46,147 nt of DNA from a virus. A program made the position numbers and the translations under genes. Position 1 is the stretch's first letter. The number at the start of each line of letters is the position of its first letter. The notes below the pieces were generated by a model. It made no database searches. It had not been told where the DNA came from and worked only from the letters and a program-made list of their open reading frames with translations. Of this stretch, positions 6,091 to 42,553 are shown in pieces. The stretch spans positions 1 through 46,147 of the IMG/VR virus record IMGVR_UViG_3300008262_000290. One strand, 5' to 3'.

Positions 6091-7644
6091 ATGGCGTATC
6101 GTTCTTCCATAAATGTAACTAGCATTAATAAGTCTTTATCTGGACTTAACAAAAGTCTTCTTAGGACAAGAGAATCTGCTGCAACTGTTAGAACAACAAT
6201 TATACAGTCTACAACAAATAAGAGAAAATCTTTTTCAGCGAGTATAAAAGCATTTAATCAGAGAAGAGAAGCGACAAGAAGAAAAGAAAGAGAGGATATT
6301 GTAGAGGCATCATCAATTCAGGGTGCAATATCAAGATCTACTAGTGCTGTAGCAAATAGCACAAGAGGTTTCTTGGGTAGAATACTTGATTTTCTTGGAA
6401 CATTACTAGTTGGATGGGCTTTGACCAATCTCCCAAATATCATTAAAATGGCTCAAGCTCTCATTGAGAGGATGAAGACATATTTCCAATATCTCAATAA
6501 TTTTAGAGAGGGTCTTCAAAACTTTTTGATAGGATTTGGTGATATGGTTGGTGAAATTTCTTCTGGTCTTGTTAGATTTGATTTTAATGCTGTAAGAGTA
6601 GCAGTAGACAAAGGAATGAATCAAATGAAGGATTCCTTCGTCCAAATGGATAATTCAATAAATTCTGTAATACTTTTACTTAAGCAGGATGTTAAGAAAT
6701 TACTTGGAATTGAGGATTATGAATTTGATAGAGGTAGTGATGATGGTGGAGGTGGTGGAGTAGATCCTGGAGGAGGTTCAGCACAACTTCCAGATCCAAA
6801 GTCTGCTGAAATGTATCGTATCGCTGCGGCACTCACCACAGAAGGTAGTAGTGACCAGGGATACGCCGACATGCTGCAGGTGGTTGCTAATAGAGTTGCA
6901 CACCCTGGATATGGTACTAACTATACTGATGTTCTTGGTGCTCCCGGACAGTTTCAAGGTGTGTACACTAGAGGTAGTGGAGCATTTAAATCAATACGTA
7001 CTTTAGGGCAAGCATCTGCATGGTCTGGTCAAAGTCAGGCAACTCTATTAAAAGTTATTAGTCTTCTATCCGATCCAAAAAGACAAGCAAGTGCAGCAAA
7101 ATTTGTTGGCGGTGCTCTAGAGTTTAGAGGTAGTCCAGCAACAGTTAGGGCAGTTAATAGTGATAGCGATCCACGAAATAATATTCGGGCAGATGCTAAT
7201 GGAATAATTCCTGGTTCCGTCTGGCGTGGTACAAACCAAGATAACCAGTTCCTTGTGGATCCATCCAAAGATCCGATGCTTAGTGGTCCAGCATCACTTA
7301 ACCTACCAAAACCACAACCACAAGCACCACCACCAAAAAGCCCCCCAAAACGAAATACTGCTATGCCTGATGCGAGTAAAGAGGGTGCTCCCGGAATTCC
7401 TGGAGATCCTAAGTCTCCAAAAATTGGTGAATGGGTAGGTTCATCTAAAAAAGACTATTCATCTCAACTTGCTATGGCTTTGCAAAATGCAAAACCACAA
7501 CCAAGAACAAATACTTTAATTTTAAATAATACTGTAAAGCAAACAGAATATGTTGGTGGAGAAACAAATAGTGGTTCTGTTATTATAGTTGCTGGGGTAA
7601 ATAGTAATAATATAAAAAATAAGTTCCTTTCTAGTGTAGTATAA
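6091..7644 (+). CDS. hub protein with SleB-type cell-wall hydrolase domain
   Basis: A 517-residue protein. The N-terminal 90 residues are basic and helical. A hydrophobic segment (GFLGRILDFLGTLLVGWALT) parallels one in the preceding protein. A glycine-rich linker (DDGGGGGVDPGGG) leads to a globular domain at about 243-390 beginning MYRIAAALTTEGSSDQGYAD, with VVANRVAHPGYGTNYTDVL and APGQFQGVY. The AALTTEG...VVANRV...GQF pattern is that of SleB/CwlJ-type hydrolases (Hydrolase_2), which cut peptidoglycan; the glutamate in TTEG is the likely catalytic residue. The tail is proline-rich and ends with NTLILNNTV. The domain call is good; a role in wall penetration at injection is inferred. Confidence 0.75.
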   Translation: MAYRSSINVTSINKSLSGLNKSLLRTRESAATVRTTIIQSTTNKRKSFSASIKAFNQRREATRRKEREDIVEASSIQGAISRSTSAVANSTRGFLGRILDFLGTLLVGWALTNLPNIIKMAQALIERMKTYFQYLNNFREGLQNFLIGFGDMVGEISSGLVRFDFNAVRVAVDKGMNQMKDSFVQMDNSINSVILLLKQDVKKLLGIEDYEFDRGSDDGGGGGVDPGGGSAQLPDPKSAEMYRIAAALTTEGSSDQGYADMLQVVANRVAHPGYGTNYTDVLGAPGQFQGVYTRGSGAFKSIRTLGQASAWSGQSQATLLKVISLLSDPKRQASAAKFVGGALEFRGSPATVRAVNSDSDPRNNIRADANGIIPGSVWRGTNQDNQFLVDPSKDPMLSGPASLNLPKPQPQAPPPKSPPKRNTAMPDASKEGAPGIPGDPKSPKIGEWVGSSKKDYSSQLAMALQNAKPQPRTNTLILNNTVKQTEYVGGETNSGSVIIVAGVNSNNIKNKFLSSVV

Positions 7645-8934
7645 ATGGCAGCAAGAGACGCATCAATATTCGAACAAATTACCATAGAGTCTGGTGATGG
7701 TACAAGAACCATTGATATGAGACTCGGTGTAGTTGCTATCAAATATTATGAAGATGTTTTTTCACCAACTATCACAGCAGAGATTACCGTATCTAATACG
7801 GGAGGAACAATTCCTGGAAAAGATGGTTCATTGCAGTCAATCTACAGTGGTCTTCCGTTAAGAGGTGGCGAAAGAGTATTCATAAAAATTGCTGGTAACA
7901 GTGATAAAAATAAATCTGGTATTGATCTTGTTGATGAACCATTGTACGTCTCTAAAATTACAAATGTTATCAGAGAAGGTCAAAGAGAAACATTTACATT
8001 AAAGTTAGTATCAAGAGAAGCAATTACTAATGAAACTTCAAGACTATACAAAAAATTTCCAAGAGCTCAAATAACTGATCATATAGAAAACATTATAAAG
8101 GAAGGTTTACAATCTCAAAAAACATTGAAATCTGATGTCGTTAGTAATCAATATAGTTTTATTGGAAACTTGAGAAGACCTTTCGATGTTCTGACTTGGT
8201 TAGCATCAAAGTCTATTCCAGATACCAATGTTCCTGGATACTTTTTCTATGAAACTATAGATGGATACAACTTCAGATCTATCGACAAACTTATTATTGA
8301 TGGAAAAGCAAGTCCAAAAGCAGAATATTATCATCAAGAGGACCAAGATATTGAGAAGTCAACTGATCAAAGGATATTGAGTTATTCTGTTAATAGAAAT
8401 AATGACTTATTAGAAAAACTTAGACTAGGAACGTATGCATCATTCTTTACTGAATATGATCCATATCAAAGTAAGTTTAGTCTTCAGCAAGAAGGAAAGA
8501 GAACAATAACTGATTTTGCTAAGAACGCAACATTCCTTGGTGACGATCCAGATATTCCTAAAATTTTTGGTTCTGGTAACTTCTCTTTTGACACTGTTCC
8601 AAGTAGAATTATCTCATCAGTTCTCGATGTTGGTGTGTTGGAGAAAGATGTGAGCAAACAACCTGGTAATGATGCTAAGTTATATCAAAGAGACGCTTTC
8701 TTTAGATACAATTATTTGTTCATGCAAACACTCAATATGACTGTTCCATTAAATAATAATTTAAGATCTGGTGATGTTATACGATGCAATTTCCTTAAAA
8801 TTTCAGCAAACAGTAATGATTTTGACCCTGAGAATAGTGGTCTATATATGATAAAAGAACTCTGTCATTATTTTGATGGTACACAATCTCTAACATCAAT
8901 GAAGCTACTTAGAGATACATTCAGGGATATTTAA
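7645..8934 (+). CDS. baseplate hub protein, gp27-like
   Basis: A 429-residue protein, close in size to T4 gp27 (391 aa), the trimeric hub torus that holds the gp5 spike. It opens with an ITIESGDGTRTIDMRLGVVA beta domain, then YYEDVFSPTITAEITVSNT, PLRGGERVFIKI and FTLKLVSREAITNETSRLY, typical of hub barrel domains. A middle domain includes RRPFDVLTWLASKS and a C-terminal segment includes NNNLRSGDVIRCNF. It lies directly before the gp5-type OB-fold gene, the expected partner. Cyanophage annotations of this gene vary, so the gp27 equivalence is by fold pattern and position, not close identity. Confidence 0.65.
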   Translation: MAARDASIFEQITIESGDGTRTIDMRLGVVAIKYYEDVFSPTITAEITVSNTGGTIPGKDGSLQSIYSGLPLRGGERVFIKIAGNSDKNKSGIDLVDEPLYVSKITNVIREGQRETFTLKLVSREAITNETSRLYKKFPRAQITDHIENIIKEGLQSQKTLKSDVVSNQYSFIGNLRRPFDVLTWLASKSIPDTNVPGYFFYETIDGYNFRSIDKLIIDGKASPKAEYYHQEDQDIEKSTDQRILSYSVNRNNDLLEKLRLGTYASFFTEYDPYQSKFSLQQEGKRTITDFAKNATFLGDDPDIPKIFGSGNFSFDTVPSRIISSVLDVGVLEKDVSKQPGNDAKLYQRDAFFRYNYLFMQTLNMTVPLNNNLRSGDVIRCNFLKISANSNDFDPENSGLYMIKELCHYFDGTQSLTSMKLLRDTFRDI

Positions 8935-8943
8935 AAGTAACAA

Positions 8944-10995
8944 ATGGAAGATCTTTCACTTAAAACTAATTTTGTAGGCAGAGATGGATTTGTTTGGTGG
9001 ATAGGGCAGATTCCACCTATTGAATCATGGGACCAACAAGCAACTGGTCCAGGTTGGGGCATTAGATATAAAGTCCGCATTATGGGATATCATCCTTATA
9101 GTGAAGCGGAACTAAGTAATGAGGACTTACCATGGGCACATGTGATGCTACCACCAGGTCATGGAACTGGTTCGGCAAATACATTCAAGAGTATTCGTTT
9201 TAACCCTGGTGATACTGTAATTGGTTTCTTTCTAGATGGAGCAGATGGTCAGCATCCAGTTATTATGGGTGCATTCGCCAATTCAATCGACGCTGTAAAG
9301 GATGGTGAGAAACTACCATTCGCACCATTCTCCGGATACAATAAGTATATCAAAGAACCAGCGAAAGGCTCACTATCAAAGAGTGAGTCTGGAGATCAGA
9401 ATGCTGCAACTGCAAAACAACCAATAGGTGTTAGTCCTTCTGATGCTAAAAAGGTAGATCCAAGCAATCCAGCAGCAAAGAGAACTTCTGATGGAAAGGT
9501 GATACGATTACCTTGTGGTACAGAAGGTGAAGATACTAAAGGTAATAAAGGAACAATTACCAAGATCAAAAATGCTATTGAAGGATTTGTTAAGTTTCTC
9601 CAAGACTTAAAGGCACAGTTTGATGAGGGACTTGAGTATTATAGAGACTGGGTAGATAGAGAGATTGATATTAGGGCAGAACAAATAACTACCGCTGCAA
9701 CCAAAATGATCAGTGGTATGATTAATAAGTTATTTAAGAAACTTGAACCAATTCTAAGCAAGGGTCTTGATCTTCTCTATGCTTCTGTATATGCTACAGT
9801 CTTCGCTGCAACTTTAAATCCAGTAGCAGCACACCTTGCTGGAGTAGCGGCACAAACTGCTATGCTTCAACCAGTAAAAATACTTCAAGATCTTATCCCT
9901 TGTATTGTTAATCAAATCTTAGACAAAGTATTTAATCTTGTAAAAGATCTTTTAAAGTCTATTGCTAATAATGTCCTAAACTTTGTCGATTGTGTTGCTG
10001 ATCAAACTGTCGGTGCAATGATCAATGGTATTATTGGTCTTATTGATAATGCATTGCTACCAGCAATTAATGGAATATCTAAGATTCTTCAATTCTTCGA
10101 AGACTTTAGTGTTGAGGGTCTACTACGGAATGGTATTGATGCACTTCTTGGACTTGTTGGTCTTAAGTCTTGTAATAAAAAGAATCAGAAAGACAAGTAT
10201 GGCGCTTGCAAATATAAACTAGGATATGGACCAGTATTTCAAGATGAGCCAGATCTCAAAGGAATTATTGATAATGCTAATACTGCTAAGTCAATATCAA
10301 CAGCAGCAAAGCTTGCTGGTTTCCCATTAGACGGAGTTCAAGATATTGCTGGAGCATATGACTTCATATCTGGAACAGTTAAAGATCCAAACTTTATTGG
10401 TGATCTTGGTTCTTGTTATACTGGACCACCAATTGTTTGTGGACCACCAAAGATCAATATTTTTGGTGGGGGTGGTACAGGAGCAAGTGCTGTTCCTATT
10501 CTTGGTGGTATTATCGGTGAAGATAAGTATAAAACAGGAAGTATTATAAGTGTTAAGGTAACCAATCCAGGAAGTGGATATACCTTCCCACCATTTGTAG
10601 AAGTTGTAGATAGTTGTAACCAAGGATATGGTGCTATTGCTAGAGCTATTGTTAAGAATGGTCAGGTAGATACCATTTATGTTGTGTCTGAGGGTGAGAA
10701 CTATCCAGCAGATAAAGAGATTCCATATGTTGTTGATAGCGTAACAGTTATTGATCCAGGGCAAGACTTTGAAGATGGAGATACTGTAGTTGATGACCAA
10801 GGAAATGAGTATGATGTTCTTATCCAGTCTGGTGCTATCATCAAGGTGACCCCAATAAATAGTAGAGATGTAACTAATATTCCTGTACTTGAGGTCATTT
10901 CAAAGAATGGTTCTGGAGCAATCCTTGCTGCTAACCTAGGAGAAAGACCACCATTTGATGGAGAAGTTAAGCAAGTAATTGATTGTATTACCTAA
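8944..10995 (+). CDS. 5: gp5-type baseplate spike protein, OB-fold, no lysozyme domain
   Basis: A 683-residue protein. Residues ~10-115 look like the gp5/VgrG OB-fold: DGFVWWIGQIPPIESW, YKVRIMGYHPYSEAEL, LPWAHVMLPPG and GDTVIGFFLDGADGQHPVIM. T4 gp5 (575 aa) then has a lysozyme domain and a beta-helix; here the middle (~200-420) is helical with hydrophobic stretches (YASVYATVFAATLNPVAAHL) and no lysozyme motif. The C-terminal ~190 residues carry two beta modules of the VTNPGSGYTFPPFVEVV type. The needle is encoded by the next gene and a hydrolase domain lies in the 6091-7644 protein, so T4 gp5 functions seem spread over three proteins. Confidence 0.8.
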   Translation: MEDLSLKTNFVGRDGFVWWIGQIPPIESWDQQATGPGWGIRYKVRIMGYHPYSEAELSNEDLPWAHVMLPPGHGTGSANTFKSIRFNPGDTVIGFFLDGADGQHPVIMGAFANSIDAVKDGEKLPFAPFSGYNKYIKEPAKGSLSKSESGDQNAATAKQPIGVSPSDAKKVDPSNPAAKRTSDGKVIRLPCGTEGEDTKGNKGTITKIKNAIEGFVKFLQDLKAQFDEGLEYYRDWVDREIDIRAEQITTAATKMISGMINKLFKKLEPILSKGLDLLYASVYATVFAATLNPVAAHLAGVAAQTAMLQPVKILQDLIPCIVNQILDKVFNLVKDLLKSIANNVLNFVDCVADQTVGAMINGIIGLIDNALLPAINGISKILQFFEDFSVEGLLRNGIDALLGLVGLKSCNKKNQKDKYGACKYKLGYGPVFQDEPDLKGIIDNANTAKSISTAAKLAGFPLDGVQDIAGAYDFISGTVKDPNFIGDLGSCYTGPPIVCGPPKINIFGGGGTGASAVPILGGIIGEDKYKTGSIISVKVTNPGSGYTFPPFVEVVDSCNQGYGAIARAIVKNGQVDTIYVVSEGENYPADKEIPYVVDSVTVIDPGQDFEDGDTVVDDQGNEYDVLIQSGAIIKVTPINSRDVTNIPVLEVISKNGSGAILAANLGERPPFDGEVKQVIDCIT

Positions 10996-11541
10996 ATGGC
11001 AAAGCGCCCAGAAGATAAACAAAACTGGTATTTGAGAGAGTGTATCTCTTATAACCCAAAAGTAAGGGAAGAAATATGTAATCCTTCCTTTGGATATTTG
11101 GGAGCTTCCAATTATTTTTTATATACAGTATCCGATAAGAATTTAAAAACTTCTATCGACATTACGGATGCTGGAAAATTTATTCTAAACTCCGACGAAT
11201 CCATTGAAATGGTTGCTGGAGAGCGTTCTGGCGACAAAAGTGAGAACATTCTAATTCACGCTAGACGTGGTAATGTATCAATAACAGCAGATAGAACTGG
11301 AAATATTCGCATATCGGGTAATAATGTAGTAGTTGAGTCTAATGGTGATCTCGAATATGTGGCTGGTAATGATTTTATTGTTGATGCCGCTAACATGAGG
11401 TTTCAAGGGAACAGTATTGAATCTGATGCACTAACAGGAAGTATGGTTCCACCACAGAAACAGTTTTTATTTAAAGTCTTCGCCAACTCCTTTGTTGGTG
11501 GTGGAGTAATACTAAAAGCACTTGGATTATTCATAGGATAA
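10996..11541 (+). CDS. beta-helical spike tip protein
   Basis: A 181-residue protein starting immediately after the gp5-type stop. Residues ~85-145 are short alternating beta repeats (ENILIHARRGNVSITADRTG, NIRISGNNVVVESNGDLEYV, AGNDFIVDAANMRF), the pattern of the triple-stranded beta-helix of gp5C and VgrG needles. The C-terminus has a hydrophobic glycine-rich segment (FVGGGVILKALGLFIG). Inferred role: the membrane-piercing needle below the OB-fold protein. The N-terminal ~50 residues (WYLRECISYNPKVREEICNP) would be the attachment domain. No PAAR-like tip motif was seen. Confidence 0.6.
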   Translation: MAKRPEDKQNWYLRECISYNPKVREEICNPSFGYLGASNYFLYTVSDKNLKTSIDITDAGKFILNSDESIEMVAGERSGDKSENILIHARRGNVSITADRTGNIRISGNNVVVESNGDLEYVAGNDFIVDAANMRFQGNSIESDALTGSMVPPQKQFLFKVFANSFVGGGVILKALGLFIG

Positions 11542-18001: not shown

Positions 18002-18862
18002 ATGACTATTGCATCTGTTCCTCATTTACTATCTTCAGAATTAATTCATCACATTACAACCAATCAAGAGAATTTAAATTTACAAACTCTTTTTGGATCA
18101 AGTAAGTATTCAGCAGGTATTAATAAAAGAGTTGTCATTGCTAGTGGAGTTACTATTGGAGCCACGAGCACAGGAAATTATGCTTTAAACATTCCGTCAG
18201 GATTTGGTGGAAGAATACTTTTGGTAAATGAGGGTTCTATTCTTGGTGCTGGTGGTGCCGCAAATAGTGGAACTGGTGGAAATGCTATTAATGCTGGTGC
18301 CTCTAATATTTTCATTGATAATCGTGGCACTATTTCCTCTGGTGGTGGAGGAGGAGGAGTTGGTGGCACTGGTGGTGGAGGATATTATCAATCATCTGGA
18401 GAATCATATTGGGCAAATACTGTTTGTAGCGGAAACAGTATGCCTTGTTATCAATTAAATCCACCACACCCTTGTAACTGTCAAGATGAATGTAGAAGAA
18501 TAAGAGCTTGTGGTGATGGTAGAAACTATACATTATGGGAAAAAGTATGTAAATATTGCTATACAAATACTTACTATACCTCAGGTGGTTCTGGTGGTAA
18601 TGGTGGAAGAGGTGAAGGTTATGATGGTGCTGCTGCATCTGGTTCTTCTGGAAGTGCAGGTGGCACAAATGCTGGTGCTGGTGGAACAGGTGGAACTGGT
18701 GGTTCTTACGGAAACAGTGGTAATACTGGTAACACCGGTGCAAACGGCAACAATGGGTCTGGTGCCGCAGGAACTGCTGGTGGTTTAGCAGGATTTTATA
18801 TCGTTAACAATGGAAATGTTACTTGGGTTGCAAATGGCACAAGAAATGGTAGAATAGGATAA
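18002..18862 (+). CDS. glycine-rich, 8-cysteine fibre tip (module 1)
   Basis: A 286-residue protein directly after stalk gene 1. The N-terminal ~50 residues look like an attachment helix/sheet. Glycine-rich blocks follow (GAGGAANSGTGGNAINAG, SSGGGGGGVGGTGGGG), then a cysteine-rich insert of about 50 residues (residues ~145-195) with eight cysteines (VCSGNSMPC, HPCNCQDEC, RACGDG, VCKYC). More glycine motifs follow (GGSGGNGGRGEG, GNSGNTGNTGANGNNGSG). Glycine-rich blocks joined by variable loops resemble the adhesin gp38 of T2- and S16-like phages, where loops bind receptors. Inferred role: receptor-binding tip, with the cysteine loop folded by disulfides or metal. It is paralogous to the tip at 34448-35626. 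Confidence 0.7.
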   Translation: MTIASVPHLLSSELIHHITTNQENLNLQTLFGSSKYSAGINKRVVIASGVTIGATSTGNYALNIPSGFGGRILLVNEGSILGAGGAANSGTGGNAINAGASNIFIDNRGTISSGGGGGGVGGTGGGGYYQSSGESYWANTVCSGNSMPCYQLNPPHPCNCQDECRRIRACGDGRNYTLWEKVCKYCYTNTYYTSGGSGGNGGRGEGYDGAAASGSSGSAGGTNAGAGGTGGTGGSYGNSGNTGNTGANGNNGSGAAGTAGGLAGFYIVNNGNVTWVANGTRNGRIG

Positions 18863-19590: not shown

Positions 19591-19689
19591 TTTATTGTTG
19601 ATGATAAAAATCTTAATTAATATTAACTAAAGTGATTGGTTGGCAAAAAAGTTACAGATTTAATGTTGCATTTCTAATTACATGCTAAG

Positions 19690-19697
19690 AATAAATA
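19690..19697 (+). promoter_or_regulatory. late promoter for module 2
   Basis: AATAAATA, 17 bases before the ATG of the second stalk gene, followed by TAAAAACCGT. The same promoter-plus-leader arrangement recurs at 32773-32799. The 124-base gap 19591-19714 holds nothing else I can identify. Confidence 0.65.
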
Positions 19698-19714
19698 TCT
19701 AAAAACCGTAGATA

Positions 19715-20488
19715 ATGGCTGCATTAAATTTTCCTGCTAGTCCTACTTTAAATGATGAGTATAACGCTAATGGTGCTACTTGGCGTTGGAATGGAACTGC
19801 TTGGGTAAGACTTGGTGATCCTGGAGCACAAGGTGCTCAAGGTTCCACAGGTGCTACTGGTGCTCAAGGTGCTCAAGGGACCGCTGGTGCTCAAGGTGCT
19901 GTAGGGGCTCAAGGTGCTCAAGGTTCCACAGGTGCTACTGGTGCTCAAGGTTCCACAGGTGCTACTGGCGCACAAGGTTCAGTAGGAGCACAAGGAACCG
20001 CTGGTGCTCAAGGTGCTACTGGTGCTACTGGTGCTCAGGGTGCTGTAGGTGCTACTGGTGCTCAGGGTGCTGCAGGTGCATCAGGATCTCAAGGTACTAT
20101 AGGTGCTCAAGGTGCTACTGGTGCTCAGGGTGCTGTAGGTGCTACTGGTGCTCAAGGTGCTCAAGGTGTACAGGGTTCACCTGGAACTCTAACTCTTAAT
20201 GAAAAGTCTTCAAATTATACATTAGTAGCATCAGATAATAGTAAAATTATTTCAATTACTGCAGCAATTAGTATCACCGTTCCATCTGGAGTATTTTCTG
20301 CTGGAGATACTGTAACCATAGTAAATAACACAAATGCAACCAGATCAATAGTTCAAGGATCTGGTGTTACTATGTACACTGCAGGAACTTCTACTACAGG
20401 AAATAAATCTTTAATTCAAAGAGGAATTGCTACGGTAATTTGCGTATCTTCCGATACTTTTTTCATTAGTGGAGCTGGTCTTGTATAA
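19715..20488 (+). CDS. collagen-like fibre stalk protein (module 2)
   Basis: A 257-residue protein. A short N-terminal head ([20 protein letters not shown] then [13 protein letters not shown]) is followed by about 40 uninterrupted Gly-X-Y triplets (residues 37-156, mostly GAQ, GAT and GST). A ~95-residue C-terminal beta cap runs from [16 protein letters not shown] to FFISGAGLV. The NG.W.WNGTAW.R head is shared with module 3 and replaces the long head of module 1. The stop overlaps the start of the tip gene (TAATG), so stalk and tip are probably translated together. Confidence 0.85.
19823..20182 (+). repeat. collagen-like Gly-X-Y repeat, 40 triplets
   Basis: A 360-base tract of 9-base units encoding [12 protein letters not shown] and GSP triplets in unbroken phase. 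It shares near-identical blocks with the tracts at 16916 and 22689. Confidence 0.95.
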
Positions 20489-22551
20489 TGGGTCATCCAC
20501 AACAATATACAATATTTAATACTCAACTGAATGATCTTCCGTCGTTGGAGAATTGTATTTATTATTATAATATTAGTAGTGTGTATGGGATATATAACAG
20601 ACCTAATGGAAATATTTTACAAAGTCTTGCACCTGGACATCCCTTTGCTGTAAATGCAGGATCTAGTAATCGTAATGGTTCTAGGTTTGGTCAAACTGAA
20701 ACTCCATATAATTATTATCCAACTTTATCCAGTAATTCTAATGGAGAATATTTGGATATGTCTGTGAATAATAATTGGAATCCTGATACTTCTGGAGTTC
20801 TTGCTGGTTTTGTTGGTCCAGCAATTGGCGCTAAAAACCAAATGAATTGGCCAAATAGTAGTATGACATTTACATTTTGGGTTACTTATGAACACAATAA
20901 TATTGCAAAACAAGCTTTAATGGGAGTAGATACAATTCCAAGTTCTGGTCAAAGATATGTTGGATTTTATTTTGTTTCTGGAAAACTTGTATACACTAGT
21001 TATGATTATACAGCAGGATGGCAAGAAGAACATACATTTGACTATACTTTTTCAACTTCAGTTCTGTATAATATAACTATAACATTCAATTCTTCTGGTG
21101 TAATTAGTTTATATGTGAATGGAACCTTTGAAGATAATTATACTGAGACTGAATCTGTCAATACTCCAGTAGGATCTAGAACTGGATATGGTGTAAGTGC
21201 TGATGTTTATGGTGATGGTGCCTTTAGTGGAAAATACTATAAATCGGCAGCGTGGGCAACACTTTTAAATTCTACTCAAATTACAGAAGTTTATGATGCT
21301 GGACCTGGAGTTAATCCAGATTCTTCGTATTGGATAAGTAGTGTTGGTTATAGTAGTCTTGAGAGAGGTACTGCTGGTGTATATTATGATGGACATTACT
21401 ATGGTTTTGGTGATACAAATAGGGGAAGTGGTGGACATGATGATTGGTTTATCTATAAAATAAATGAATATGGTGCGATTGTTTGGCAAAAATATATTGG
21501 TGCTGGTAATTATGAATATGGTCTTGGAATAGATATTGATTCTAGTGGTAATATTTACATCTTTGGTGCTCAGTCATCGGAATTATACAAACCGTTCTGG
21601 ACAATGCAATTAAGCTCTTCGACTGGAGCAATTCAATGGCAAAGACAAATTACAACAGGATATGCTAATAATGTAGCTTATGATTTAAGATGTGATTCAA
21701 GTGGAAATGTTTATTGGACTGGATACGTCAATTCTCCAGCAACTGCCGGTAATGAACAAATGTATCTTGTAAAATATAATTCTTCAGGAACTTTACAGTG
21801 GACTAAAACATCAGGTACTGGTTACTCTGGAATGGTTGTTTTTGTAGATAGAACAACTGATGATGTTTATGTTGGATTTGGTAATAATGTTTCTCATTTC
21901 AATTCATCGGGAACTCTTCAAAAGACGGTACAGTTTTCTACAATACTTTCCAATAGTGGAATTAGAGGATTATGTGTTGATAGTAGTGGAAATATATTTG
22001 TGGGTGCTATTGATAGTAATAATGATGGATATGTATTGAAAACAAATTCTTCTGGCGTAATTCAATGGCAGATTAAGCATAGCTCTGAAAGTAGAATCTA
22101 TGCTACAGCAATGACTTTGGATGATGATGGCAATCTTTACGTTGGAGGATCTCTTCTACAAACAAGTCCATCAGTTGTTCTCAGGTCTTTTCTTTTTAAA
22201 TATAACCAATCCAATGGAAACATTTCTTGGAAGAGATCTATATCCCATTCAACTAATTTTGTACAAAGTAATTCTCACCATCTTTATGTTGTTAGAAATA
22301 GTATTTACTTTGTTGGTATGAATCAGTCTACTGCTGGAAATTGGGATCATATGGTAGCAAAACTTCCAATAGATGGTTCTTTTACTGGAACGTATGGTGG
22401 ATTTACGTTAGCATCTTATACAACAACTGATTCTACTCCAACTATTACATCTTCAACACCAAGTCTATCCTTTGGAACACTTGGATCATCAAGCACATCA
22501 TCACTTTCAATATCAGATGCTTCTGCTACTCAAATTATTCGGTACTTATAA
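20488..22551 (+). CDS. LamG-like plus beta-propeller fibre tip (module 2)
   Basis: A 687-residue protein after stalk gene 2. Residues ~25-270 look like a concanavalin/LamG jelly-roll: SSMTFTFWVTYEHNNI, RYVGFYFVSGKLVYTSYD, NITITFNSSGVISLYVNGTF. Residues ~275-630 contain about seven repeats with the beta-propeller signature DSSGN(I/V)Y, for example IDIDSSGNIYIFGAQSS with GAIQWQRQ, CDSSGNVYWTGYV with GTLQWTK, and CVDSSGNIFVGA with GVIQWQ. The end is serine/threonine-rich. A lectin-like domain plus a seven-bladed propeller suggests carbohydrate binding at the fibre tip. It is unrelated to the glycine-rich tips of modules 1 and 3. Confidence 0.7.
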   Translation: MGHPQQYTIFNTQLNDLPSLENCIYYYNISSVYGIYNRPNGNILQSLAPGHPFAVNAGSSNRNGSRFGQTETPYNYYPTLSSNSNGEYLDMSVNNNWNPDTSGVLAGFVGPAIGAKNQMNWPNSSMTFTFWVTYEHNNIAKQALMGVDTIPSSGQRYVGFYFVSGKLVYTSYDYTAGWQEEHTFDYTFSTSVLYNITITFNSSGVISLYVNGTFEDNYTETESVNTPVGSRTGYGVSADVYGDGAFSGKYYKSAAWATLLNSTQITEVYDAGPGVNPDSSYWISSVGYSSLERGTAGVYYDGHYYGFGDTNRGSGGHDDWFIYKINEYGAIVWQKYIGAGNYEYGLGIDIDSSGNIYIFGAQSSELYKPFWTMQLSSSTGAIQWQRQITTGYANNVAYDLRCDSSGNVYWTGYVNSPATAGNEQMYLVKYNSSGTLQWTKTSGTGYSGMVVFVDRTTDDVYVGFGNNVSHFNSSGTLQKTVQFSTILSNSGIRGLCVDSSGNIFVGAIDSNNDGYVLKTNSSGVIQWQIKHSSESRIYATAMTLDDDGNLYVGGSLLQTSPSVVLRSFLFKYNQSNGNISWKRSISHSTNFVQSNSHHLYVVRNSIYFVGMNQSTAGNWDHMVAKLPIDGSFTGTYGGFTLASYTTTDSTPTITSSTPSLSFGTLGSSSTSSLSISDASATQIIRYL

Positions 22552-22556
22552 TCTAG

Positions 22557-22564
22557 AATAAATA
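22557..22564 (+). promoter_or_regulatory. late promoter for module 3
   Basis: AATAAATA six bases after the propeller tip stop and 20 bases before the ATG of the third stalk gene. Confidence 0.6.
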
Positions 22565-22583
22565 ATCAAAAAGTTTGTAATAA

Positions 22584-23531
22584 ATGGCGCTAGATTTTCC
22601 ATCCAGCCCTAGTTTAAACGATTATTATGTCGCCAATGGGCGTAGGTGGCAATGGAATGGGACTGCCTGGCAACGAATACCAGACCCTGGAGCACAAGGT
22701 GTTCAAGGTTCCACAGGTACTACTGGTGCTCAAGGTGCTCAAGGTGCCACTGGATCTGGTGCTCAAGGAACCGCTGGTGCTCAAGGAACCGCTGGTGCTC
22801 AAGGATCTACAGGTGCTCAAGGTGCCACTGGATCTGGTGCTCAAGGATCTACAGGTGCTCAAGGTGCTACTGGTGCTCAAGGAACTCAAGGTAGTATAGG
22901 TTCAACAGGTGCTCAAGGTTCTACTGGAGCAACTGGAGCACAGGGTGCAACAGGTTCTACTGGAGCACAAGGAAGTACAGGAGCAACAGGTGCACAGGGT
23001 GCAACAGGTTCTACAGGTGCTCAAGGTGCTCAAGGTTCCACAGGTGCTACTGGTGCTCAAGGAGCACAAGGATCTACAGGTGCTCAAGGTTCCACAGGTG
23101 CTACTGGTGCTCAAGGAGCACAAGGATCTACAGGTGCTCAAGGTTCCACAGGTGCTACTGGTGCTCAAGGTGCTCAAGGTTCCACAGGTGCTACTGGCGC
23201 ACAGGGTGCACAAGGTGTTGCTGGACCATCAACAATTCCTCAAAATTCCCAAACAACAGGATACACTTTGGTATCTGGTGATGTTGGAAAGCATATATCA
23301 ATAACTACTGGTGGAGTTACTGTTCCAAACTCAGTGTTTAATGTTGGAGATGCGGTGTCTATATATAATAATTCTGGTAGTAATCAAACAATTACTCAAG
23401 GAGCATCTACTACTTTACGTTCAGCAGGAACGGCAAATACAGGAAACAGAACATTAGCACAATATGGAGTATGTACAATTTTGTGTGTAGGGTCTAATAC
23501 ATTTGTAATATTTGGAGCAGGATTAACATAA
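22584..23531 (+). CDS. collagen-like fibre stalk protein (module 3)
   Basis: A 315-residue protein with the same short head as module 2 ([27 protein letters not shown]). Its collagen-like region covers residues 36-216, about 59 triplets with two breaks where GATGS runs straight into GAQ. The shared C-terminal beta cap runs from [18 protein letters not shown] to FVIFGAGLT. The breaks may mark kinks in the stalk. The tip gene follows after one base. Stalk length differs between the three modules (86, 40 and 59 triplets), so tips would sit at different distances from the baseplate. Confidence 0.85.
22689..23231 (+). repeat. collagen-like repeat with two interruptions
   Basis: A 543-base tract encoding GAQ, GST, GAT and GTA triplets. 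Two GS-GAQ interruptions break the 3-residue period without shifting the reading frame. Blocks of about 30-50 bases recur (for example GGAGCACAAGGATCTACAGG), so it is recombination-prone. Confidence 0.95.
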
Positions 23532-23532
23532 T

Positions 23533-24384
23533 ATGTCTATTATTCAATCATTTTTTATGGGATCATCTTCATCACCATTGAGTGTTGAAGTTCTTATGAT
23601 GGGTGGTGGTGGTGGAGCATCATCTCTTCTAGCAATTAATCCTATTGCTAGAGATGACGATGTTTATTGGCCAAATTACTATGGAGGCGGCGGGGGTGGT
23701 GCTGGGGGATTATATATTTACTCGGCAACATTAAATCCTGGAAGCAGTTCTACAGTCACAATTGGTGGAGGTGGAAGTGGTTCTGCCGATGGATCTCCAA
23801 CTTCATTTACTGGTGCTTCTAATGCTGTTGGTGGTGGATATGGAGCAGCAAGTGATACTGGTGTAGCCTGGACAGGCCGACCTGGTGGATCTGGAAGTGG
23901 TGGTAGCAGTGGTGGCGCCGGCGGATCCGGAACTTCTGGTCAAGGAAATTCTGGTGGATCATCCACTAGTAACGCGCAATGGGGAGCAGGAGGTGGTGGA
24001 GGAAAAGGTGGTGCTGGTAGTCCAGGACCATATCCTGTCGGTGGTGCTGGAGGACCTGGTTATGATTTAGCAACTTTTAGAGGAGGGACTTCACTAACAG
24101 TTGCTTTTGGAGGGGGTGGTGCCGGATGGAGTAGTGTCGGAAATAATGGTGATGGAACCACGACTCAATCACCTGCTTCTAATACAGGGGGTGGTGCTAG
24201 AAATGCTATCGGAAATTACTTGGGCCCTGCAGGTACTTTCTCTGGTGGATCAGGAAGAGTCATCGTTCGCTATGCTGGATCTACACAAAGAGCAACAGGA
24301 GGAACTGTAACAACAGCGACTGTTGGTGGATCTCCTTATACTATTCACGATTTCACCGCAAATGGTACATTCTCTGTAACTTAA
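23533..24384 (+). CDS. glycine-rich fibre tip (module 3)
   Basis: A 283-residue protein rich in poly-glycine blocks: VEVLMMGGGGGASSLL, YGGGGGGAGGLYIYSA, NPGSSSTVTIGGGGSG, GGSGSGGSSGGAGGSG. It ends in a distinct domain (GGSGRVIVRYAGSTQRA then YTIHDFTANGTFSV) found at the end of many glycine-rich phage tail proteins. It has no cysteines, unlike the tips at 18002 and 34448. The poly-glycine blocks likely pack as a polyglycine-II sandwich carrying variable loops (YWPNYY, TGRPGG, SPGPYPVG) that contact the receptor. Placement right after a collagen stalk supports a tip role. Confidence 0.7.
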   Translation: MSIIQSFFMGSSSSPLSVEVLMMGGGGGASSLLAINPIARDDDVYWPNYYGGGGGGAGGLYIYSATLNPGSSSTVTIGGGGSGSADGSPTSFTGASNAVGGGYGAASDTGVAWTGRPGGSGSGGSSGGAGGSGTSGQGNSGGSSTSNAQWGAGGGGGKGGAGSPGPYPVGGAGGPGYDLATFRGGTSLTVAFGGGGAGWSSVGNNGDGTTTQSPASNTGGGARNAIGNYLGPAGTFSGGSGRVIVRYAGSTQRATGGTVTTATVGGSPYTIHDFTANGTFSVT

Positions 24385-24397
24385 TATAGTAATAATT

Positions 24398-25513
24398 ATG
24401 GCACATTTCGCAGAACTAGATGAAAATAATATAGTACTTCAAGTAACAGTAGTCAATAACTCTGATATTTTGGATGAAAATGGAAATGAGTCAGAAGAGA
24501 TTGGAATTCAATTCAATAAAAACTTATTAGGACAAGATACAAAGTGGGTTCAAACTTCTTATAATTCAAATTTTAGATATAAGTATGCTGGGATAGGTGA
24601 CTTCTATGATGAAGTTCATCAAGTTTTTATTCCACCAGGATATCATTATGATGAAGAATATAATCGAGTTGTTTTAGATGGTTCTTTATATAATGAAGAA
24701 TTTGATGAATTTATTTTACCTCAACCACATCCTTTATGGTGGTATGATCCAGAAAGAAAAAAATGGAGACCACCATTTCCAAAACCAATGACTACTCATC
24801 AATATGAATGGGATGAATCTATTTCAGATTGGAAACAAGTTGAAGGTTCTTTAAAATGTCTATTAATAATGGAAAGAAAGATAAGTATATTTAAAGATCC
24901 ATTTCCTCATCTGACCATAGAAAATTTTTATACTGATGAAGAATTAGAATTGATTTGGGAAGAACTTATTTTTCTAACTAAACCAGGAAAATTGTACGAT
25001 CCTGGATACATTCATGGAGCAGTTCATCCAGAAACAGGAGAGATTTTAACTAAATCTAGGTCTATACAATTAGATATCTCTTATAATGATAAAAATCTTT
25101 CCAATATTATAACGGTAACTCAAAAGTTATTCAATCATGGGTTTTTGAATATCTTTTATGATAGGTTTCCACAACATAAAAAAATTCTAAACACTAATTA
25201 TTGCTACACAAAAGTTAGATATTATCATGATGGAGACTATTATGCTCCCCATACTGATATAAATCATGACTTTTTAGCGTTCAGTTATTTCAATAGAGAA
25301 CCTAGAAAGTTTACGGGTGGTGAATTATTTTTTCCAGAGTATGGTGATTATGAATTTAAATGTATGAACAATAGTTTAATTCTGTTACCATCATATGTTA
25401 CTCATGGAGTTAAGTGGGTAAGTATAGAAGATACAGATTATTATTCTGGAAATGGTAGATATTGTATATCTCATTTCTTTGGTATTGATTATCAAAAAGC
25501 ACATGAAAATTAA
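24398..25513 (+). CDS. structural-domain / 2OG-Fe(II) oxygenase fusion
   Basis: A 371-residue two-part protein. Residues 1-150 match a domain common in cyanophage virion proteins (AHFAELDENNIVLQVTVVNN, WVQTSYNSNFRYKYAGIGDF, QYEWDESISDW). Residues ~155-365 form a prolyl-4-hydroxylase-like oxygenase: DPFPHLTIENFYTDEELELI, YYAPHTDINHDF (H285 and D287), FTGGELFF, then LPSYVTHGVKWV (H336) and GRYCISHFFG (R354). The HxD...H triad and the 2-oxoglutarate-binding arginine are present, so it should be active. The virion-type domain suggests the enzyme acts on, or is carried with, the fibres. It follows the glycine-rich tip and overlaps the sulfotransferase-like gene. Confidence 0.78.
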   Translation: MAHFAELDENNIVLQVTVVNNSDILDENGNESEEIGIQFNKNLLGQDTKWVQTSYNSNFRYKYAGIGDFYDEVHQVFIPPGYHYDEEYNRVVLDGSLYNEEFDEFILPQPHPLWWYDPERKKWRPPFPKPMTTHQYEWDESISDWKQVEGSLKCLLIMERKISIFKDPFPHLTIENFYTDEELELIWEELIFLTKPGKLYDPGYIHGAVHPETGEILTKSRSIQLDISYNDKNLSNIITVTQKLFNHGFLNIFYDRFPQHKKILNTNYCYTKVRYYHDGDYYAPHTDINHDFLAFSYFNREPRKFTGGELFFPEYGDYEFKCMNNSLILLPSYVTHGVKWVSIEDTDYYSGNGRYCISHFFGIDYQKAHEN

Positions 25514-26213
25514 TCAAATTTACCACACATCTCACTGTGGTTCTACTTTAATGGCAACATTATTGGCGAATTCTACAACTGTTTATTGCGAACCATCATG
25601 GTCTTCTAGGTTATTAAATGGTGAGTTGGAACTTGATGATGCCACTATTAAATTTGGAAGTGGATGGTGTCCGTTTTCACATCAACTACCGGGTAAAAAA
25701 GTTTTCTTGTATAGGAAATTAAAACATCATCTGTTTAAAATAAAATCATCAAACTATATTAATCGTATTGTATCTACAAAGTATGAACATCATCTAAAAC
25801 ATTGTCACCCATCTTTAAAGGAATATCAGTTTACAACTGATCTTGAGAAAATTACTTTTATGTGGTTGAATAATGTTCAATGGATAAGTGATATTGGTGA
25901 TGTCTTATGGGTAGAATCAAATAGTTTTTTTGAGAATAAAAAAGAAACTATGGATAAAGTATGTGATCACTTTAATTTAGATAGAGTAAAAAACTATGAA
26001 CTATCTAATGTTTATGTGAAGTCTTTTGGTCTGATAGGGAAAGAAAAATCAATTAATGAAACTGAGATACCAAATTTAGGTACAGTAAAATCTTTATACC
26101 CTTCTTTTGGTATCATTGATGATGACTTATGTGATCTATGTCCTGAAATTAATGATTTAGTTTCATGGATTAAAAAAGAAATACCCAGTATGCAAATTGA
26201 TTTTCTAAATTAA
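25503..26213 (+). CDS. sulfotransferase-like protein
   Basis: A 236-residue protein from ATG 25503, which overlaps the oxygenase stop by 11 bases; the longer frame upstream is unlikely. The N-terminus HTSHCGSTLMATLLANS then VYCEPSW matches the 5'-phosphosulfate-binding loop of sulfotransferases (usually PRSGTTLL..LL..HP....EP). A helical FMWLNNVQWISDIGDVLWVE segment and a C-terminal helix fit the fold. Seen: the loop motif. Inferred: transfer of sulfate to a sugar, or to a residue hydroxylated by the upstream oxygenase. The classical proline-arginine of the loop is replaced by SHC, so substrate or activity may differ. Confidence 0.6.
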   Translation: MKINQIYHTSHCGSTLMATLLANSTTVYCEPSWSSRLLNGELELDDATIKFGSGWCPFSHQLPGKKVFLYRKLKHHLFKIKSSNYINRIVSTKYEHHLKHCHPSLKEYQFTTDLEKITFMWLNNVQWISDIGDVLWVESNSFFENKKETMDKVCDHFNLDRVKNYELSNVYVKSFGLIGKEKSINETEIPNLGTVKSLYPSFGIIDDDLCDLCPEINDLVSWIKKEIPSMQIDFLN

Positions 26214-26226
26214 AAAATTACTAGAC

Positions 26227-26255
26227 TTGACAATCCCCAAATAATCCTTTATAAT
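26227..26255 (+). promoter_or_regulatory. perfect sigma-70 promoter P1
   Basis: TTGACA, a 17-base spacer and TATAAT: an exact consensus host-type promoter, the expected early type in T4-like phages. A 7-bp inverted repeat (GACTTGA at 26224-26230, TCAAGTC at 26258-26264) brackets the whole element. Transcription would start near 26262 and meet the terminator at 26333-26362. Confidence 0.88.
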
Positions 26256-26261
26256 AATCAA

Positions 26262-26362
26262 GTCTTTCAAATCCTTGTATCTTTGGGAATGAAGACCCTC
26301 TCTGTGGTGGGAGAGATGAGTTGGTGGTTACTAGAGAGGGTCTTAGCACCCTCTCTTTTTTT
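26262..26362 (+). ncRNA. candidate ~100-nt RNA / attenuated leader
   Basis: Bounded by a perfect sigma-70 promoter and an intrinsic terminator with no convincing gene between them, this would give an RNA of about 100 nt. It contains three complementary segments: A (26294-26303, GACCCTCTCT), B (26333-26342, AGAGAGGGTC) and C (26348-26356, ACCCTCTCT). A:B and B:C pairing are mutually exclusive, and B:C is the terminator. This is either a small RNA or a leader that switches between antitermination and termination. A frame starting at 26289 crosses the terminator but lacks a ribosome site. Confidence 0.5.
26333..26362 (+). terminator. intrinsic terminator
   Basis: A 9-bp stem AGAGAGGGT / ACCCTCTCT with a 6-base loop, followed by seven T residues. 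It ends the late fibre transcript and the short P1 transcript, just before early promoter P2. Confidence 0.9.
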
Positions 26363-26373
26363 GCCTAGACCCC

Positions 26374-26402
26374 TTGACACCAGGACCCAGACCCCCTATA
26401 AT
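26374..26402 (+). promoter_or_regulatory. perfect sigma-70 promoter P2
   Basis: TTGACA, a 17-base spacer and TATAAT, 25 bases before the ATG at 26428. Direct repeats AGACCCC lie at 26368-26374 and 26390-26396, overlapping the -35 and the end of the spacer, possible repressor contacts. It should drive the two small genes and probably the tRNA cluster. Confidence 0.9.
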
Positions 26403-26427: not shown

Positions 26428-26622
26428 ATGGGAACCGCACAAGAATCTGTCCTGGGCATTGTTATTGATGTCTGCACTCGCTCTTTCCTTCTCATTAGTG
26501 ATGAAGGTAATGAGAAAATGGTAGAGTGTGAAACTGTTCAGGAGTTTATGAATGTCCTGGAAGTTGTTACTGCTAACCTTGAACCTCATCAAATCGAATA
26601 CGCTGATATTGCTGTAGAATAA
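26428..26622 (+). CDS. small early protein, unknown
   Basis: A 64-residue acidic protein (AQESVLGIVIDVCTRSFLLI then SDEGNEKMVECETVQEFMNV) directly behind promoter P2. It looks like a compact alpha/beta domain: beta hairpin, then a helix rich in V and E. CGGA at 26417-26420 precedes the ATG at a workable distance. The next gene starts two bases after the stop, so they are probably one operon. I do not recognise the family. Confidence 0.7.
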   Translation: MGTAQESVLGIVIDVCTRSFLLISDEGNEKMVECETVQEFMNVLEVVTANLEPHQIEYADIAVE

Positions 26623-26624
26623 TA

Positions 26625-26798
26625 ATGGAAGTGTTTACTGTAAAAGAGTGGGAAGAAAACTTTGATGCTCTCCTAGAACGAGTAGAACAAGGAGAGCACA
26701 TTGGTATCATTGGAGAAGATGGTAAGGCAGCAGTTATGATGCCTGCCGATGATGAACTTATACGAATACACACTGAGTTAAACAACGAAGCTCAGTAA
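26625..26798 (+). CDS. Phd/YefM-like antitoxin-type protein
   Basis: A 57-residue protein: MEVFTVKEWEENFDALLERV then EQGEHIGIIGEDGKAAVMMP. This matches the N-terminal DNA-binding half of Phd/YefM antitoxins (tvsEaRenf..LL..V..GE.i.I...Gk..av..P). The C-terminal ~15 residues are too short for a typical toxin-binding tail, and no toxin gene follows: the next element is a tRNA. It may neutralise a host toxin, act as a small repressor of its own operon, or have lost its toxin. The domain call rests on the motif. Confidence 0.7.
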   Translation: MEVFTVKEWEENFDALLERVEQGEHIGIIGEDGKAAVMMPADDELIRIHTELNNEAQ

Positions 26799-36044: not shown

Positions 36045-36132
36045 ACCTTTGTCCCGGTTGAAGATGAGAGTATGAGCTCTTAAAGGGACAGTTATGAAAC
36101 TGGCACAGGGTTCATCGGTAGAGTCCCCTCCG

Positions 36133-36141
36133 TGCTATAAT
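36133..36141 (+). promoter_or_regulatory. extended -10 promoter for the helicase
   Basis: TGCTATAAT, an extended -10 element with a consensus TATAAT but no clear -35. Transcription near 36148 would leave an 18-base leader before ATG 36166, so this element decides the helicase start. Confidence 0.7.
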
Positions 36142-36165
36142 AAGTCTATCGTCGATGAGGAAGTG

Positions 36166-37335
36166 ATGCAACTCCGTCCCCACCAGCAGGATGCTACTGA
36201 CGCTATGCTGGCGTTTGAGAAGGGTCAAATCATCGTTCCTACGGGCGGTGGTAAGACTATGTGCATGATCAAGGATTCTCTTGATTATCTGAATGCTTAT
36301 GATGCTGGAGTCATTGTTGTAGTTGCTCCTCGTATCCTGCTTGCCGAGCAACTCTCTGCTGAGTTTCTTGAATTTCACACTGATGTTGCTGTGATGCACG
36401 TTCATAGTGGTGAGACTCATCACTTCAGCAGCACTCGCCCTGCTATTATTCACAACTGGTCTAAGCAAGCATATCGCAAGCAACTGATCTTCACTACCTA
36501 TCACTCTCTGCCCCGTCTTCAAGAGGCGGACATCAACGTTGACTGCATTTACTTTGATGAAGCGCACAATTCCGTCCAACGTAACTTTTTCCCTGCTACG
36601 GAGCACTTCTCTTCTACTGCTAACCGCTGCTATTTCTTCACTGCTACTCCTAAGCATTCTCTTACTGTTTCCAAGCCTGGGATGAATGATGTAGAAGTCT
36701 ACGGTAAAGTCATCTGTAATGTTCCTGCTCCTAAGTTGGTTGAGGAAGGTTACATTCTTCCTCCTAAGGTTGTTGTGAAGCAACTTGAGATGGTTCAGGA
36801 CAAACAGATGATTGCTGACCGTGACTCTCAGAATCTTCTGGATACTATTGACGACAATGATCTGGGTAAGATTCTGATCTGTGCTCGTTCTACCAAACAG
36901 ATTATCAAACTGCTGAGTGAGTCTGACTTCCGTAAGGAGTTGACTGAGCGTGGTTATTCCTGCATGTATATCACTGCTAAGACTGGTGGTGTTATTGACG
37001 GTCAGAAAGTCAACCGTGAAGTATTCTTTGATACCCTGAATGCTTGGGGCAAAGATCCTTCCAAGAAGTTTGTGGTTCTTCACCACTCTATTCTGTCTGA
37101 AGGTATCAATGTCTCTGGACTTGAGGCAGTCCTGTTTATGCGTAACATGGACTACATTGGAATCTCTCAGTCTATCGGGCGTGTGATCCGTCTTGGAGGC
37201 GCTCAGAAGACCTTTGGACTCGTCTGTGTGCCTGTCTACGATAAGGTGGGCATCAGCACCGCCAAGAGCGTCCAAGCGGTCGTAGACACCGTTTTCCAAC
37301 AGGGTTTGCCTGCTGTATCTGTTGTGCGTCGCTGA
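36166..37335 (+). CDS. SF2 DEAH-type helicase
   Basis: A 389-residue superfamily 2 helicase. The start MQLRPHQQDATDAML is chosen over ATG 36094 because GAGGA precedes it, RPHQ is the usual N-terminal motif, and an extended -10 promoter lies between the two starts. Motif I is PTGGGKT (~residues 25-31), motif II DEAH (~131-134), motif III TAT, and motif VI QSIGRVIRLGG near the C-terminus. It resembles phage UvsW-type or host RadD-type helicases acting on branched or repair DNA, but at 389 aa it is shorter than T4 UvsW (about 590). The codons are more G/C-rich than those of the neighbours, suggesting strong early expression or a different source. Confidence 0.85.
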   Translation: MQLRPHQQDATDAMLAFEKGQIIVPTGGGKTMCMIKDSLDYLNAYDAGVIVVVAPRILLAEQLSAEFLEFHTDVAVMHVHSGETHHFSSTRPAIIHNWSKQAYRKQLIFTTYHSLPRLQEADINVDCIYFDEAHNSVQRNFFPATEHFSSTANRCYFFTATPKHSLTVSKPGMNDVEVYGKVICNVPAPKLVEEGYILPPKVVVKQLEMVQDKQMIADRDSQNLLDTIDDNDLGKILICARSTKQIIKLLSESDFRKELTERGYSCMYITAKTGGVIDGQKVNREVFFDTLNAWGKDPSKKFVVLHHSILSEGINVSGLEAVLFMRNMDYIGISQSIGRVIRLGGAQKTFGLVCVPVYDKVGISTAKSVQAVVDTVFQQGLPAVSVVRR

Positions 37336-42505: not shown

Positions 42506-42520
42506 AGAACCGTCACAAGG

Positions 42521-42545
42521 GCACTTGATTTCAGGTGCTCTTTTT
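42521..42545 (+). terminator. intrinsic terminator
   Basis: Stem GCACTTGA/TCAGGTGC (one G-U pair) with a 2-base loop, then TCTTTTT. It ends the homing endonuclease transcript and overlaps the -35 and spacer of the next promoter. Confidence 0.7.
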
Positions 42546-42553
42546 GGTATTAT
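42525..42553 (+). promoter_or_regulatory. sigma-70 promoter with extended -10
   Basis: TTGATT, a 17-base spacer and TGG-TATTAT. Its -35 lies inside the terminator stem and its -10 just after the T-run, a compact terminator-promoter fusion. It drives the gene block starting at 42586. Confidence 0.6.

Follow-up and report, generated by a model that had tools for sequence, protein, structure and literature searches.

A movable promoter-to-terminator unit of T4-like cyanophages is best read as the gene for a trans-acting small RNA

What is transcribed, and to what end, when a consensus promoter is followed after about 100 nt by an intrinsic terminator? A 46,147-nucleotide stretch of viral DNA (IMG/VR record IMGVR_UViG_3300008262_000290; hereafter, the window) poses this question, and a first-pass annotation made from the letters alone had left two answers standing: a phage small RNA, or a riboswitch-like or attenuated leader with mutually exclusive hairpins. 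As far as we know, virulent phages have yielded few small RNAs, and cyanophages fewer still. The source of the window is a T4-like cyanophage; a tail protein encoded at 7645-8934 has matches in 539 phage records, most of them from Synechococcus phages and other cyanophages, with the best match (46.7%) in S-SRM01, a freshwater Synechococcus phage isolate. Judging from the sequences of the unit and its relatives, we favor reading it as a movable small RNA of early type that acts in trans, rather than as a riboswitch. The features of the unit and of the gene that follows are listed here.

26227-26255, plus strand: sigma-70 promoter with perfect -35 and -10 boxes and a 17-nt spacer; of 51 distinct copies in the family, 50 match the consensus at 11 or all 12 positions
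26262-26362, plus strand: small RNA of about 100 nt, its putative 5' end placed from the -10 box and its 3' end from the terminator
26262-26296, plus strand: hairpin P1, 26262-26269 paired with 26290-26296 and, inside, 26272-26275 with 26285-26288 (minimum free energy and consensus fold)
26298-26315, plus strand: hairpin P2, CUCUCU-GUGGUG-GGAGAG, with an invariant loop and compensatory changes in relatives
26320-26328, plus strand: single-stranded invariant GUUGGUGGU, proposed contact site
26333-26362, plus strand: intrinsic terminator with a 9-bp stem and 7 T, drifting in sequence with compensatory changes
26374-26402, plus strand: separate perfect promoter of the DUF7294 gene, outside the RNA unit and kept in relatives that lack the RNA there
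26428-26622, plus strand: downstream gene, DUF7294 (PF23966), a neighbor only

RESULTS

Promoter and terminator of the unit

The unit carries the sequence signals of independent transcription, a promoter and a terminator of its own. The perfect sigma-70 promoter named in the first-pass annotation holds in both position and letters, with 12 of 12 consensus matches (-35 TTGACA at 26227-26232, -10 TATAAT at 26250-26255, 17 nt apart). Only three 12-of-12 sites with a spacing of 16 to 18 nt were found in the window, all on the plus strand (26227, 26374, and 39839). Among 51 distinct upstream regions from the family, the promoter matches at 12 of 12 positions in 40 and at 11 in 10, and it is lost in one (the L116 copy described below). 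The three complementary segments A (26294-26303), B (26333-26342), and C (26348-26356) were found where they had been placed, and B and C form the exact intrinsic terminator claimed for them: 9 pairs, a 6-nt loop, and a run of seven T (26356-26362), with compensatory changes in relatives. Our script called two strong terminators in the window, at 26333 and 42517. The terminator-like hairpin at 42517-42550 is nearly identical to one at about 2415-2450 in S-SRM01 (L318), and both immediately precede the start of a gene. The RNA promoter is flanked by an 8-nt inverted repeat, AGACTTGA / TCAAGTCT (window 26223-26265), which overlaps the -35 box and the start site.

Relatives of the RNA in other phages

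Six IMG/VR contigs bear an identical RNA unit; these sister contigs are useless for covariation because their sequence is identical. When 32 whole records (S-SRM01 and 31 viral contigs) were searched by BLAST with the unit, nine gave strong matches (E below 1e-25), five of them sisters and four of them records that carry the unit at different genomic places. An impression from DUF7294 loci that the unit was private to the window's phage was thereby overturned. BLAST of whole records also detected a second, diverged copy of the RNA in three sister contigs; this copy (L116, G001:16809-16918, and its counterparts in G002 and G003) has an intact fold and has lost its promoter. At L151, the sequence just downstream is the same as at the L116 copy, but the promoter is intact.

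Alignment of the copies revealed a conserved core, from which we built the search pattern TGAAGACC-N-TGAGTTGGTGGT. This pattern matches at least 119 IMG/VR viral-contig stretches, of which three (L146, L188, and L222) are look-alikes that differ in the inner sequence, leaving at least 116 true members. In bacterial and archaeal genomes (84,980 species, one genome each), four core-pattern matches were found, none with the inner sequence; these (L234 to L237) were likewise discarded as look-alikes. A scan with a second pattern returned 52 stretches, including six diverged copies of which four are distinct (L272, L298, and L309, which are identical; L304; L307; and L314); most of the others are look-alikes in coding DNA, and three (L184, L217, and L315) match the covariance model away from the pattern site. 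Further search matches with other surroundings (L089 to L092) were set aside.

The covariance model, R1, scores the window RNA at 116 bits and finds the RNA in S-SRM01 at 10967-11078 (76.4 bits, E 9e-17), in an unannotated gap before glutaredoxin. Of the ten phage records that we searched in full with the model, no other gave a convincing match. Among 21 model-searched records, several of which are fragments, 12 carry a match with an E value under 1e-16; within this set the family is common without being universal. We rejected a weak model match (21.6 bits) in Gly-rich coding DNA at 18289-18399, similarities in ACG-2014f and ACG-2014g that are limited to the terminator, and a similarity in Nostoc phage N1 (E 0.7) that lies inside an annotated gene.

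Conservation is concentrated in the RNA. Mean identity is about 0.28 at positions more than 80 nt upstream of the core, begins to climb at the promoter, and reaches 0.9 to 1.0 in the core, where the value of 1.0 at the two search anchors holds by construction. Look-alikes were excluded, as were sites too near a contig end; the alignment required 38 nt upstream and the profile 160 nt.

A conserved secondary structure

The RNA family has a conserved secondary structure. In order, the consensus consists of P1 (outer stem GUCUUC/GAAGAC, inner stem UCC/GGA), P2 (CCUCUCU/GGAGAGG around the loop GUGGUG), a single strand with the invariant GUUGGUGGU, and the terminator hairpin. Compensatory changes occur in both the outer and the inner stem of P1, and the pairing probability of P2 in the window RNA is 0.89. 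In alignment A2, which holds the first 53 distinct sequences aligned with MAFFT and unfitted to the model, 99.4% of cells pair and five pairs show two-sided changes, and none of 500 shuffles equaled the covariation score or the percentage paired. Alignment A4 (32 sequences) adds the diverged copies and was fitted to the model, which favors structure; here 99.5% of cells pair and 8 of 24 pairs show two-sided changes, with 0 of 500 shuffles equal in score, percentage paired, or two-sided count. As a control on A4, sliding the partners by 1 to 3 columns reduced pairing to 53 to 71%. Unconstrained folding yielded P1, P2, and the terminator in 65 of 67 sequence strings, and the two failures are one RNA with an altered base in P1. 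The minimum free energy of the window RNA (-30.9, z -0.84) was equaled in stability by 38 of 200 shuffles; stability alone would thus not suffice, and it is conservation that proves the structure.

GUUGGUGGU is present in 53 of 53 A2 sequences, an invariance partly due to the search design, and in 32 of 32 A4 sequences including the isolate. Both GUUGGUGGU and GUGGUG are kept in the S-SRM01 copy, which was discovered by the model rather than by the pattern.

Genomic position of the unit

We compared the next gene at 65 distinct sites of the family. It is glutaredoxin at 59 of them, DUF7294 at two (in L229 and in the window's phage), and another gene at four (L116, L138, L151, and L202). This next gene usually has a promoter of its own, of sigma-70 type at DUF7294 and a TATAAAT box at glutaredoxin. 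The box, which we take to be the T4-type late promoter motif, lies shortly upstream of glutaredoxin at all 59 such sites.

In the window, the promoter at 26374-26402, overlooked in the first-pass annotation, lies just 3' of the terminator and drives the DUF7294 gene, which is followed by a small Phd/YefM-like gene and tRNA genes. Searching with the DUF7294 protein as query retrieved 80 loci, six of which belong to the same phage as the window. The other relatives generally keep the promoter and gene despite different upstream sequence, with homology generally beginning between 26357 and 26427. The RNA unit is therefore dispensable for the DUF7294 gene, which makes an attenuator role at that gene unlikely. 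Upstream of the unit lies a same-strand open reading frame of 253 amino acids (25452-26213); a tie between this gene and the RNA was dismissed, since its two diverged relatives (L099 and L101) have no RNA downstream.

DISCUSSION

Leader, peptide, insulator, or small RNA

The unit might be an attenuated leader, with occasional read-through into the next gene set by exclusive hairpins or by a ligand. Like attenuators and riboswitches, it has a hairpin followed by an intrinsic terminator, and the finding of glutaredoxin as the next gene at 59 of 65 sites also fits a role in cis. The pairing of A with B, which the first-pass annotation had taken for an antiterminator-like hairpin, can be drawn in the window sequence, where 26292-26303 and 26333-26344 would form 12 perfect pairs, but it is not conserved: relatives keep P1 and P2, which contain segment A. 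On A2, 87.6% of A:B cells pair, a figure matched by 394 of 500 shuffles, and one pair shows a two-sided change; the covariation seen for the terminator (B:C) is absent for A:B. Forcing A:B in the window RNA costs 3.3 kcal/mol relative to the minimum, and nascent window RNA is predicted to form it only while the 3' arm of the terminator is incomplete, up to about 26352, so that A:B is possible as a transient state in this sequence. When 51 distinct RNAs were folded at the nascent stage, 47 retained P2, three formed a short partial A:B, and the window alone formed the 12-pair hairpin; exclusive hairpins are thus not a feature of the family. The unit also precedes at least two different genes, mostly self-promoted (sigma-70 type at DUF7294, the late-type box at glutaredoxin), rather than holding a fixed leader position before one promoterless regulated gene. 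We therefore regard the leader reading of the first-pass annotation as quite improbable.

That the RNA is a messenger for a very short peptide, starting for example RTG AGT TGG TGG, is the least credible of the rival explanations. That string is invariant in the pattern-found set, and the window has an open reading frame from ATG 26290 that includes Trp-Trp and stays open beyond the terminator; against this, the frames from the conserved ATG vary in frame and length (10 to 60 codons, or 4 to 66), the S-SRM01 copy has lost the start codon, and the compensatory changes track base pairs. The family has no conserved coding frame, in keeping with the earlier statement that no credible gene lies inside the unit, and no minus-strand open reading frame of at least 60 amino acids covers it in the window. 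It is very unlikely, too, that a promoter and a terminator came to be adjacent by accident, or as a mere insulator, between late tail genes and early genes. The unit does sit at the border of a variable cassette, and its fold z-score is unremarkable, but conservation is highest in the core that separates promoter from terminator, which contradicts this explanation. An unlikely but weightier alternative is a stand-alone RNA that serves as a decoy, its repeated GGUGG motifs binding and occupying the ribosome or an RNA-binding protein of host or phage instead of pairing with a message. In its favor, the two unpaired sites share a similar GGUG core, one of them in an invariant hairpin loop, and phage mRNA gives no target signal. 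No protein partner is known, however, and neither the window nor S-SRM01 retains the short likeness of GAGGUGA to the anti-Shine-Dalgarno complement.

Proposed mode of action

The other reading offered by the first-pass annotation, a phage small RNA, is borne out by homologues that conserve promoter, fold, and terminator without a conserved reading frame. Our favored explanation, which we hold to be reasonably probable, is that the unit constitutes a stand-alone gene whose product is a non-coding phage small RNA that acts in trans, most likely by pairing with host messages. Host RNA polymerase would transcribe it from the consensus sigma-70 promoter, and, given that promoter, probably early in infection; the intrinsic terminator would release the RNA. 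From these sequence features we infer transcription, timing, and action in trans. The fold is predicted to leave two G-rich sites unpaired and exposed, GUGGUG in the loop of P2 and the strand GUUGGUGGU, and these GGUG sites are the obvious candidate contact points. Their most likely partners would be C-rich (ACCACC-type) segments in host messages, and the pairing may alter the translation or stability of those messages. Such base pairing with host mRNA is a guess from the anatomy of the RNA, and our preference for it over occupation of a protein is a judgement.

Phage targets are unsupported, since complementarity at phage gene starts in the window and S-SRM01 (home-made open reading frame calls) showed no excess over 100 letter-shuffled controls; the fraction of controls with equally many strong sites was 0.11 for the window and 0.22 for S-SRM01. 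Positions 26290-26303 are perfectly antisense over 14 nt to 6505-6518, within the gene at 6091-7644; we judged this match to be at chance level and discarded it. More tentatively, with the balance somewhat against it, the RNA may be a widespread RNA-only early gene of freshwater cyanophages, a locus-moving cassette that would reprogram a conserved host target through its GGUGG-type sites.

Relation to known RNAs

None of 4227 Rfam families scored at or above its gathering cut-off for the window RNA or six relatives, which gave weak matches only. The literature covered on cyanophage small and non-coding RNAs, S-SRM01, and Kyanoviridae, which included few subscription papers, holds no published description of this RNA, and the main text of the S-SRM01 paper makes no mention of a small RNA, promoter, terminator, or glutaredoxin (PMC8557907). 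On these two grounds, within that literature, we class it as a new RNA family within a known kind, the phage small RNAs.

Phage-encoded trans-acting small RNAs named in the covered part of one source are 24B_1, VpdS, and IpeX (PMC12197685). Like the window RNA, these are short non-coding RNAs encoded by a phage genome; they belong, as described there, to phages of enteric bacteria and Vibrio, whereas the window RNA belongs to T4-like cyanophages, with no Rfam relation found. The same portion describes CfrI, an antisense RNA of cyanophage S-PM2 linked to psbA (PMC12197685). CfrI too is a non-coding cyanophage RNA, but by that account it lies antisense at psbA, whereas the window RNA is not at psbA, overlaps no likely opposite-strand gene, and has same-strand neighbors. 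Structured cyanophage RNAs are also reported in S-CREM1, namely wcaG, manA, glnA, and abiF (PMC9964418, covered in part); these are Rfam families, and none matches the window RNA. With PhotoRC-II, they and CfrI make up the cyanophage RNAs named in the covered parts of these sources (PMC9964418 and PMC12197685).

The RNA is compact and conserved, and occurs both in scores of uncultured phages and in a cultivated pair, S-SRM01 and its Synechococcus host, so that its expression, target, and fitness effect are directly testable. Its recognition also illustrates that the unaided reading of a single window can lead to an RNA family absent from Rfam.

Other observations at the locus

The DUF7294 promoter is strikingly conserved, and many relatives (L015 to L088) have an inverted repeat, CCCCCTATAATATGGGGG, around its -10 box, which may be an operator. 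Immediately 3' of DUF7294, the Phd/YefM-like antitoxin gene (PHROG 375; 26625-26798) is apparently retained in S-SRM01. Compared with the close relatives L020 and L022, in which the flanks are nearly adjacent, the window holds a cassette of about 6.8 kb (19592-26370) that contains tail and repeat proteins, a 2OG-oxygenase-like gene, the 253-amino-acid gene, and the RNA unit. Elsewhere in the window, two long open frames on opposite strands, 36094-37335 (plus) and 36112-37299 (minus), occupy the same 1.2 kb, and one of them is presumably spurious.
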